From Halobacterium sp. DL1 (lineage in GTDB: Archaea; Halobacteriota; Halobacteria; Halobacteriales; Halobacteriaceae): a stretch of DNA of 64,000 nucleotides. Both the position numbers and the translations under genes were made by a program. Positions 10,264 to 46,121 of the stretch are shown piece after piece. Each line of letters starts with the position of its first letter. The first letter of the stretch is position 1. Location: assembly GCA_000230955.3 (NCBI GenBank), contig CP007060.1, positions 62,001 through 126,000 on the forward strand, written 5' to 3'. The notes beneath the pieces were generated by a model. That model saw only the letters and a list, made by a program, of their open reading frames with translations, was not told the origin of the DNA and did not search any database.

Positions 10264-10464
10264 TCAGTCGCGGAGCGCCGCCACGTCGCTCGCTCCGGGG
10301 TCGTCCGGCAGCGCGTCGATGCAGTCGAAACAGAGGAAGAACTCGGTGTCGTCCGTGAACTCCAGGGTCATCCCGCCGGTGCGGGTCTGCTCGCTCGCCC
10401 AGATGCCCGCGATGCCGCCCGCGAGTCGGACCTCCCCGGCACACCCCTCGCACTGTTCGGCCAT
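10264..10464 (-). CDS. Small CxxC zinc-ribbon-like protein
   Basis: A 66-residue protein with two CxxC pairs, CEGC near the N-terminus (residues 5-8) and CFDC around residue 45, which would bind one zinc ion. It resembles the small haloarchaeal zinc-finger proteins annotated only as DUFs. The ATG at 10464 is the only good start. It lies tail to tail with the LLM oxidoreductase. Function unknown. Confidence 0.7.
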   Translation of the reverse strand: MAEQCEGCAGEVRLAGGIAGIWASEQTRTGGMTLEFTDDTEFFLCFDCIDALPDDPGASDVAALRD

Positions 10465-10549
10465 GGTTCTGGTACGTACGTCTCGCCCATACAGTTTCGG
10501 CTCTAGGCGGAGGTCCTGCCGGTTCGGACTGCAACGTGAACCCGACCTC

Positions 10550-10650
10550 GAAAGCCCCGGGTGGCTCGACTCGGGAGCCTCGCTGCGGTCCTCGGCCTAC
10601 GGCCTGCGGTCCTTTCGTTGGCTGCCTTCGCCCCCAGTCTCGGGGCTTTC
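10550..10650. repeat. Intergenic long-loop hairpin element, copy 1
   Basis: Inverted repeat with arms GAAAGCCCCG (10550-10559) and CGGGGCTTTC (10641-10650) and an 81-nt loop. The loop contains two direct copies of CTGCGGTCC and a small GGCC-TAC-GGCC hairpin. A second element with the same outer GAAAGCCC/GGGCTTTCAA ends lies at 44348-44454. It occupies most of the 270-bp gap upstream of the cysteine-cluster gene; the rest of that gap shows only a TTAACTT box at about 10687. Confidence 0.65.
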
Positions 10651-10735
10651 AAGGAGGAGTTACAGCGTGAGGCCCGCTTCTGACGATACTTAACTTGGCG
10701 CTACAAACAAATCCACGCGTCACGAACCACCGAAC

Positions 10736-44260: not shown

Positions 44261-44347
44261 CGCCCGGCCCTACGTGCCCCGCGCCAAAGGTCTTACGAGG
44301 GTTCGTGTTAGGAAGCTCTTACTTCGCGGCTGGCAACTACTCGGCTG

Positions 44348-44454
44348 GAAAGCCCTCGGGCGTCTGCACTCCCGCGACTCGCTGCGCCCTTCGTTCGCTG
44401 CGCTCACTCCAGTGCTTGCATCGTCGGGGTTCGTGCAGACGCCCGAGGGCTTTC
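44348..44454. repeat. Intergenic long-loop hairpin element, copy 2
   Basis: A perfect 22-bp inverted repeat: arms 44348-44369 and 44433-44454 (beginning GAAAGCCCTCGGGCG and ending CGAGGGCTTTC) around a 63-nt loop. Outer ends match those of the element at 10550-10650. The loop contains GACTCGCTGCGC and TTCGTTCGCTGCGCTCAC. It lies 87 bp upstream of the MutS-like gene start. The rest of the 416-bp gap is repeat copy C and unannotated sequence. Confidence 0.75.
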
Positions 44455-44668
44455 AATCCACCAGGCTACCGGCTGGTCAATCGTGTTCGGGCGAACTGGA
44501 CGCCTAGTGCCGCTACGAGTTTTGATTTGACTTGTCGTTCAGAAACGAGAGACGCCGATACGAGCATCCGCGAGCGAGCGGTCCAACGGACCCGAGCGAA
44601 GCGGTTCACCGAGCGCGGAGCGCTCGGGCCGACGACCGACCACCGGGAGCGAGGAGTGCTTTTTCCCC

Positions 44669-44676
44669 AAGTTTTT
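44669..44676. repeat. Target-site duplication, left copy
   Basis: AAGTTTTT directly precedes the insertion sequence; the same 8 bases follow its right end at 46122-46129. Confidence 0.85.
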
Positions 44677-46121
44677 GGTCGTGTCGCAAAGCGGTCTAGA
44701 CTTTGCCGCTGGTACTCTCAATTGAGAGGTCACAGTTGATTGCTGTTTTGGTCGAACGCTGGAGCAGTTCGTCGAGGAACGCTTGGTAGTACTCGGGGTC
44801 GGTGTACTTCACCAACCGAAGTTGGAGTATCGCTTCCAATCCCTCTGCTGTCCAGCGCATCCACTGGTTCTTGCACCGCTTGCTGACCTCGCCCATCAGT
44901 CGTTCGACGGGGTTCGAGGTCCACGGAACCTCGAACCCCTCGACAGCGTGCTCGGCGAACGTCACAATCGACGGCAGCCACCGCCGAAGATACCCTGCAG
45001 CCTTCGCTGACCCGAACTGCTCCAGTTGCCACGCTGTCTTCTCCAATCGCTCTCTCGTTCGCGCGATCCGCGAGCGGATCGCCTCGAACTCCTCTTCTGG
45101 ATGGTGTTTCACCACCGAGTTCTTCAGATGGGATACCTCGTCGATCACCTCCGAAACGATCTCCTTCCGGCGGTCCAAGGAGAAGACGCCATCGTCCCAG
45201 AGGGTGTAGCCCAGCGTTCGGCCGACGTGAACGAGATCGAGTTGGTGGTCACGGGCTTCGTCGGTAAAGGCCGTGACGATGCCGCTATCAGCGTCACTGA
45301 CGACCGTCGCGTCGTCAGTGACTGCGCCGATATCATCGAGTTCGGCGGCAGTTTCGTCCCAGTCAGCGTTGACCGACAGATCCAGGAGGGAGCGTGACTC
45401 TTCGGCGGTGTCTTCGCCGAGCGTTGCTTGGACGGAGTGGGACGAGCGGTCGTCGTCTTGGCTGTGGCATTTTGTCCCGTCAGGAATGACGGTGTCAGCG
45501 TCTGTGTCAGCGACACAGTCTGGGAGGAACTGCTTGAGCTTGTGGCCGTATTTCTTGGCACGGCGGTTGATGGTGGTCGGCGACGGCATCGAGACGAAGC
45601 CGTCGCCGTGATCGGCAGCGTCACGATAGCTGAGCGAGGTAGCGAGATCGACGCTTTTGGCGGCGATGTCCTGCTGATAGCGGTTCTGTCCGTCGAAGCT
45701 AAGAACGTCTTCGACGGGGCGGAAATAGCTGGATTCGTCGTTATCAGCGGCTGTATCTTCGATGTAGTGGAGAGAGAACTCGTGTTCCCCGGCGGTTGTG
45801 ACAGCTGTGCGGGTATCGGTGCCGGCGCGTTGGAAGCGTTGGTCACCGTTGCCGTGGGCGTGTTTGTCGCCACAGAGCGCCTCGACGCTGGCGGCGTCGA
45901 GGCTCTCGACCAGCGATTCAAGGAGTACTGCTTCGAGGTTCTGGTCAGTGACGGCCTCGGCAAGCGTGGCGAGCGGTAGCGTTTTGTTGTCGTCGATACT
46001 CAGTTCAAACCGCACGTCGATTGTGGCGTGCATGGGTCACCTCTTGGGTGGATACCAGAGGCGACCCGTTCCTCACGGGAGCCAGTTACTACTGAACTCT
46101 AGAGGACTTTGCGACACGACC
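44677..46121. mobile_element. ISH6-family insertion sequence (1445 bp)
   Basis: A complete insertion sequence. Terminal inverted repeats begin GGTCGTGTCGCAAAG at both ends (15 of 15 identical), then continue with three mismatches to TCTAGA, about 24 bp in all. Eight-base direct repeats AAGTTTTT flank it. Size, 8-bp duplication and transposase agree with the ISH6 family of haloarchaea. The intact duplications and undamaged transposase mean the insertion is recent. Confidence 0.88.
44696..46033 (-). CDS. ISH6-family transposase
   Basis: A 445-residue transposase with no frameshift. It starts MHATIDVRFELSIDDNKT, has the PTTINRRAKKYGHKL helix-turn-helix-like segment, then acidic catalytic-domain stretches IPDGTKCHSQDDD, VVSDADSGIV and the C-terminal PWTSNPVERLMGEVSKR, in keeping with a DDE enzyme. 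Codon use is less GC-biased than neighbouring genes (for example CAGCGTTGACCG-type codons), consistent with recent arrival. The stop codon lies within the left terminal repeat. Confidence 0.85.
   Translation of the reverse strand: MHATIDVRFELSIDDNKTLPLATLAEAVTDQNLEAVLLESLVESLDAASVEALCGDKHAHGNGDQRFQRAGTDTRTAVTTAGEHEFSLHYIEDTAADNDESSYFRPVEDVLSFDGQNRYQQDIAAKSVDLATSLSYRDAADHGDGFVSMPSPTTINRRAKKYGHKLKQFLPDCVADTDADTVIPDGTKCHSQDDDRSSHSVQATLGEDTAEESRSLLDLSVNADWDETAAELDDIGAVTDDATVVSDADSGIVTAFTDEARDHQLDLVHVGRTLGYTLWDDGVFSLDRRKEIVSEVIDEVSHLKNSVVKHHPEEEFEAIRSRIARTRERLEKTAWQLEQFGSAKAAGYLRRWLPSIVTFAEHAVEGFEVPWTSNPVERLMGEVSKRCKNQWMRWTAEGLEAILQLRLVKYTDPEYYQAFLDELLQRSTKTAINCDLSIESTSGKV

Follow-up and report, generated by a model that had tools for sequence, protein, structure and literature searches.

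A dispersed family of non-coding hairpins in haloarchaea, with turnover of hairpin sequence at shared intergenic sites

Introduction

Two hairpins with long loops lie in the window, the 64,000-nucleotide stretch of the Halobacterium sp. DL1 genome analyzed here, and the original prediction, made from its letters, placed them in one family with shared outer arms (GAAAGCCC/GGGCTTTC) that could be MITE-like, an RNA element or binding sites of a nucleoid protein. The longer-armed of the two, copy 2, raises the question of whether such a family exists and, if so, whether it is best understood as mobile DNA, as RNA or as a host element.

Hairpins in the window

An inverted-repeat check of the window confirmed the coordinates, arms and loops of both hairpins: copy 2 had exact 22-bp arms around a 63-nt loop (Table 1), and copy 1 had 10-bp arms (10550-10559 and 10641-10650) around an 81-nt loop. 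Their placement in non-coding gaps also held, with no called gene in either gap. Copy 1 was flanked by divergent genes, and copy 2 by the start of a reverse-strand MutS2-like gene on one side and an ORF for an ISH6-family transposase on the other (44696-46033, minus strand; NCBIfam 387 bits, cut-off 240). The arms of copy 2 are far beyond chance: no other inverted repeat of this kind in the window had arms of more than 14 bp, and the longest arm in each of 20 first-order random windows measured 11-15 bp. Folded as RNA, copy 2 with its tail had a z-score of -7.07. The 10-bp arms of copy 1, taken alone, are unremarkable against chance (inverted repeats of at least 10 bp numbered 77 in the window against a mean of 46 in random windows; fold z-score -1.35, with 19 of 200 shuffles equally good), and its membership of the family rests on a sequence model, R1, that was built without it and matched it at 35.6 bits (E 1.6e-6). 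As copy 2 was among the 23 full-length copies from which R1 was built, its own match (44348-44472, 138 bits, the top match in the genome) is by construction; BLAST matches in related genomes, which are independent of R1, extended into its tail.

Beside copy 2, positions 44560-44690 held a second repeat-like non-coding sequence (GCATCCGCGAGC...GGTTCAC...GGCCGACG...GAGGAGTGCTTTTT...AAGTTTTT), and several relatives (L344, L345, L347-L349, L351) had a similar sequence upstream of their MutS2-like gene.

Table 1. Parts and surroundings of the two hairpin copies, in window coordinates.
Feature	Position	Strand	Basis
Copy 2, complete: hairpin with its right-hand tail AATCCACCAGGCTACCGGCTGGTCA	44348..44479	+	Model R1, BLAST
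Copy 2, left arm: GAAAGCCCTCGG end and a stem that varies within the family (GCGTCTGCAC)	44348..44369	+	Arm check, alignment
Copy 2, conserved loop box CTCGCTGCGC	44378..44387	+	Sequence, conserved alignment columns
Copy 2, conserved loop box GTGCTTGCATCGTCGGGG	44412..44429	+	Sequence, conserved alignment columns
Copy 2, right arm: fully complementary (GAGGGCTTTC), usual form in the family CTCGCCCTTTC	44433..44454	+	Arm check, end count
Copy 2, tail: the side where paired copies carry a second, inverted unit	44455..44479	+	Sequence, paired copies
Spacer from GAAAG end of copy 2 to start codon of reverse-strand MutS2-like gene, near the usual distance	44261..44347	.	
Copy 1, degenerate single unit	10550..10661	+	Arms and model R1
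Spacer from GAAAG end of copy 1 to start codon of reverse-strand gene 10264-10464	10465..10549	.	

Distribution of the family

A dispersed family that includes both hairpins was strongly supported. BLAST with copy 2 gave matches in 12 of 13 Halobacterium genomes, 23 of them in this genome, and R1 raised this to 49 matches in this genome alone and 383 across the same fraction of the genus (12/13, with 150 candidates scored per genome). One genome of 2.4 Mb (G006) was the only Halobacterium genome without a model match, the other 12 having 6 to 61. At the level of the class, with 24 candidates scored in each genome, R1 found matches in 127 of the 145 haloarchaeal genomes sampled, representing 51 of the 58 genera in the sample, and in a draw from the phylum the 30 of 196 genomes that matched were all labelled as the same order or nearer. 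A pattern scan of the genome collection returned at least 120 stretches, and all 80 listed bear haloarchaeal names. Matches were found in 91 plasmid records and in none of 50,697 phage records, and neither the window nor five loci matched Rfam at gathering score.

In this genome the outer pattern GAAAGCCC...GGGCTTTC occurred at only three places, and at none when read backwards. From its exact form, present in 6 of 59 genomes including this one, the family had at first appeared to be rare and nearly limited to the genus, which was wrong: that rarity is misleading because the GGGCTTTC end is a minority form. A CRISPR-repeat origin, considered because the end GGATTGAAAG resembles the ends of CRISPR repeats, was dropped as the copies are dispersed.

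Anatomy of the unit

The unit was an imperfect hairpin of ~105-115 bp with conserved ends, a two-box loop and a tail. In the alignment its parts ran in the order GAAAGCCC[T/C]CGG, a stem of 9-12 bp, CTCCCGCGRCTCGCTGCGC, a low-complexity loop, GTGCTTRCGTCGYCGGGGTTC, the stem complement and a right end, typically C[T]CGCCC[C]TTTC followed by ARTCCRCC and a short palindromic tail; most fetched copies shared the consensus GAAAGCCC[T/C]CGG–stem–loop–stem'–CGCCC(C)TTTCARTCC. A conserved mismatch sat between the outer 5 bp (the GAAAG/CTTTC pair) and the stem, which was the most variable part of the inverted repeat, and a weak extension, ACACCTC, preceded GAAAG. Loci from the BLAST search and the genus model scan overlapped those fetched later, and ends were counted on distinct sequences (193 from 228 rows). 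Right ends were asymmetric in 166 of these, GGGCTTTC in 10, several of which had been fetched because of that pattern, of another form in 7, unrecognized in 7 and short in 3. The originally predicted shared arms are a minority variant.

Further statistics were taken from 103 elements, comprising 99 loci and the two window copies; the loci were picked from listed, high-scoring model matches, and the figures lean towards well-preserved copies. Among these elements 41 were tail-to-tail pairs, the two units being on opposite strands and, in the pairs displayed, unlike in their stems. Additional small hairpins (e.g., GAAAGACGGCGCAGCCGTCTTTC, GGAAGACTCGCTTCGCTCGTCTTCC) were present in some loops or pair linkers (L018, L030, L097, L104, L105, L257) and may be another, nested repeat.

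In H. noricense (G011), a second Halobacterium genome (G009) and a Halorhabdus plasmid, the hairpin lay inside a larger inverted repeat, GTGTTCAGATAAG...CTTATCTGAACAC (L026, L028, L037, L038, L112, L113, L261, L262, L264, L266-L270), apparently a separate MITE that carries the hairpin and has multiplied in G011.

Arm complementarity was maintained while arm sequence varied. Across 113 copies (110 distinct), 94.5% of cells were paired against 65.0% after shuffling, in an alignment (A3) that was fitted to the structure of the model and leans towards pairing. The covariation score was 0.657 against 0.164 for shuffled data, none of 500 shuffles reached it, and six slid controls all scored far lower.

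Turnover at shared sites

Presence at a given gene was variable: the element stood upstream of pdxS in 1 of 13 Halobacterium genomes and upstream of gpmI in 5 of 13. Inspected by eye, the gene beside copy 1 had an element in 3 of 9 genomes (this one, G002 and G007), and the MutS2-like gene beside copy 2 had one in 2 of the 12 genomes that bear the gene (this one and G010), with different stems. Where an element was present in two species, the hairpin often differed at the shared site. In 77 cross-species pairs with both flanks homologous, which are not independent as they come from 22 addresses common to at least two genomes, the best unit identity was at least 0.8 in 34 and below 0.8 in 43, where random units had a median identity of 0.73 (95th percentile 0.81, 99th 0.88). 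The clearest case was L279, whose flanks were 95-96% identical to those of L304 and whose unit was only 0.67 identical; as L294, from a more distant genome, carried the L304 hairpin at 0.95, one hairpin has been replaced. Among 40 of 84 candidates scored in the genome of L279 itself, no near-identical donor was seen, other matches reaching at most 79% over most of the hairpin and 90% over 52 bases, so it may have arrived by horizontal transfer and not have moved within the genome. Similar stems recurred at several addresses in single-linkage clusters, and in L318 the interior of the second hairpin was inverted relative to L093.

No clean empty site with exact junctions was found at pdxS, gpmI, the MutS2-like gene, a convergent acyl-CoA dehydrogenase gap or the gene beside copy 1; divergence of the spacers is too rapid for that. 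Across 23 selected pairs of loci from different species the spacers were often equal in length and conserved in their GAAAG-proximal bases though the hairpins differed; an exception was copy 2 against G010, where the spacer differed as well. Two ideas were dropped: that the ~50-bp outer spacers are swapped along with the hairpin, on the evidence of the chosen pairs, and that these spacers are long target duplications, after the flanks were inspected by eye.

A conserved plasmid member

A divergent copy (53-63 bits with R1) was present on pNG600, pHME132, pBOL4-2 and pJ7-1, each time upstream of one kind of gene, at ~440 bp in L108, L110 and L111 and at ~540 bp in L109. This gene was annotated as replication factor A, as a DNA-binding protein or as hypothetical, and it scored below the cut-off of the NCBIfam model for replication factor A; relatives of it were found in 188 plasmid records. 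A 571-bp stretch covering the hairpin and the gap to the gene matched 165 plasmid records, and in 82 the match spanned 80% or more of the stretch. Within the non-coding region of ~450-570 bp conserved between L110:3990-4560 (a plasmid of Halobacterium sp. BOL4-2), L108, L109, L111 and L378-L387, an alignment of 14 plasmids showed several near-invariant blocks, and the region includes a perfect 19-bp hairpin. Plasmid PHS3 of strain R1 of Halobacterium salinarum, a laboratory species, has the same gene and region, with a hairpin that appeared degenerate by eye. None of five plasmid loci matched Rfam at E 0.1. Candidate roles for the region are a transfer origin, a single-strand initiation site or a regulator of the gene.

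Comparison with known hairpin elements

The closest known elements are the small mobile repeats (SMR-A) of Haloquadratum walsbyi, which measure ~110 bp, have prominent inverted ends, make no target duplication, reach up to 54 copies and encode no transposase, their mobilization being termed enigmatic (PMC3119063). According to the same account, identity within one type of SMR-A commonly exceeds 95% and the copies favour IS605/PATE palindromes; it also lists "SwitchRepeats", sites occupied by different repeats or by one repeat in either orientation (PMC3119063). Like SMR-A as there described, our units were hairpins of ~110 bp with inverted ends and no target duplication; unlike them, they were highly diverse, intergenic, often paired and class-wide, a separation from SMR-A (HqIRS42/43/55) drawn on description. 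The neighbours of the copies in this genome were mostly ordinary genes. PATE and the ends of IS200-IS605 elements are likewise haloarchaeal palindromes without target duplication, and PATE palindromes are near-terminal in a longer element (PMC3119063), whereas here the hairpin is the whole element.

In bacteria, the REP, BIME and REPIN sequences associated with TnpA-REP (RAYT) are non-autonomous palindromic hairpins present in many copies and in inverted pairs, with REPs of 20-40 bp that bear GTAG or CGTC tags (PMC3116915, PMC2817692, PMC8266576, PMC3733652). The haloarchaeal units resembled these in being palindromic, intergenic, numerous and often in inverted pairs, and differed in their length, long loops, covarying stems and GAAAG / CTTTCARTCC ends. 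To our knowledge they have no RAYT partner. The attC sites of integrons are imperfect hairpins with conserved outer boxes, an unpaired spacer, a stem of variable sequence and a variable terminal loop. In our family, too, covariation indicated a conserved structure with a free stem sequence, but no gene cassettes were seen and the units lacked the attC core motif.

A proposed mobile hairpin and its alternatives

Our preferred reading, in which we place about as much belief as doubt, is that the family consists of non-coding DNA hairpins, spread throughout the haloarchaea, that are mobile but non-autonomous and are probably exchanged while folded as single strands. It fits the wide range and common anatomy of the family, the strong covariation with Watson-Crick pairing and no wobble preference in the outer stem, the absence of target duplication, the asymmetric end kept by most copies, the almost wholly intergenic placement at set distances from genes and the turnover at shared sites, including the inverted interior of L318. 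A recombinase or transposase acting in trans would recognize and exchange the unit in this folded state, on a working principle comparable to that of REP/RAYT or attC hairpins, and mutated arms might be restored through self-templated copying inside the hairpin. Copies with perfect arms, such as copy 2, would be over-corrected products in which the asymmetric end has been lost. We know of no mobilizing enzyme or autonomous relative for this family.

An unlikely alternative that still deserves weight is that the hairpins are host regulatory or boundary elements (terminators, insulators or protein-binding sites) under selection at set intergenic places, where only the folded shape or its presence counts and sequence turnover is neutral. 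Almost all elements were intergenic, with 3 of 103 overlapping a called ORF, and they stood at set distances from genes: the median distance of the GAAAG end was 53 bp (IQR 47-58, n=45) to a stop codon and 101 bp (IQR 95-117, n=93) to a start codon, where elements placed at random in background gaps, no nearer to a gene than the observed minima, would have medians of 134 (IQR 74-233) and 190 (IQR 125-294). In the 23 chosen pairs, identity was high to ~50 bp upstream of the start codon and fell beyond. A host role also fits addresses that are common to species though their hairpins change, and the divergent copy within the strongly conserved plasmid region. The distances, however, depend on a crude, composition-based gene finder by which single values may be off, and a host role sits poorly with elements that are not conserved at a given gene (pdxS, gpmI), with one Halobacterium genome that has no match, and with an occurrence in all three kinds of gap, whether divergent (42), tandem (43) or convergent (14). 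The median gap minus the element was 118.5 in convergent, 155 in tandem and 223.5 in divergent gaps, against a background of 6, 64 and 140.

It is quite unlikely, if conceivable, that the family represents a structure-recognizing system of single-stranded DNA recombination on the attC principle without cassettes, in which hairpins would be swapped at fixed intergenic docking addresses and the plasmid member next to the RPA/SSB-like gene would mark exposure of single-stranded DNA during transfer or replication.

To the classical view, of MITE-type relics of insertion sequences with terminal inverted repeats recognized by a DDE transposase, we give little credence. The elements are interspersed, non-coding and bounded by inverted-repeat ends with the weak ACACCTC extension, and some genomes carry the hairpin inside the larger inverted repeat; the first two of these properties are what remains of the predicted "MITE-like" character. 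None of 31 paired elements had direct repeats of at least 4 bp at its ends (0.66 with shuffled partners), whereas target duplication is often, if not always, present in MITEs, and, within the inverted repeat, variation is greatest in the stem; single-unit ends are asymmetric.

A structured RNA, either an sRNA or an mRNA element, is also very improbable, and the earlier suggestion of one is disfavoured. Strong covariation speaks for such an RNA, and selection on RNA should leave more G-U than A-C among the intermediates. The 17 pairs of the covarying outer stem (1805 cells) comprised 1650 Watson-Crick, 37 G-T and 48 A-C combinations; with G·T not exceeding A·C, pairing there looks like a property of DNA. 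In the inner loop, eight pairs (833 cells) had 128 G-T against 12 A-C, an excess of the kind expected from RNA that stands against a pure DNA reading, though it came mostly from one column pair (G-T in 100 rows) and another with 20 U-G; that these two are true pairs is doubted, because each has at most one double change. The units of a pair lie on opposite strands, and the lack of Rfam matches in the window and five loci also speaks against RNA.

Equally hard to credit are passive quasi-palindromes, that is, intergenic repeats spread by recombination and matched in their arms by replication template switching with no dedicated enzyme: such correction alone could preserve pairing, with no role for folded DNA, and would suit both the Watson-Crick-only correction and the perfect-arm variants, as recombination between arms would suit the inverted interior, but the outer mismatch (CCC/CCC or CCCTC/TCGCC) persists in 166 of 193 copies, although correction of this blind kind would tend to remove it, and one architecture is spread across the class.

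Conclusions

The family is read here as REPIN/SMR-like. Although present in 51 of the 58 haloarchaeal genera drawn, it had neither an Rfam match nor, in the literature searched, which took in few subscription papers, a description. Its covariation carries a caution, as perfect covariation is not proof of RNA and a wobble test helps to tell DNA from RNA. The conserved plasmid copy offers a defined region of ~570 bp in which a function in transfer or replication can be tested. If the hairpins do move as folded single-stranded DNA, they would extend mobility of the REP/attC type to archaea, and the hairpin found at each address in each strain would provide a ready natural assay of that movement.
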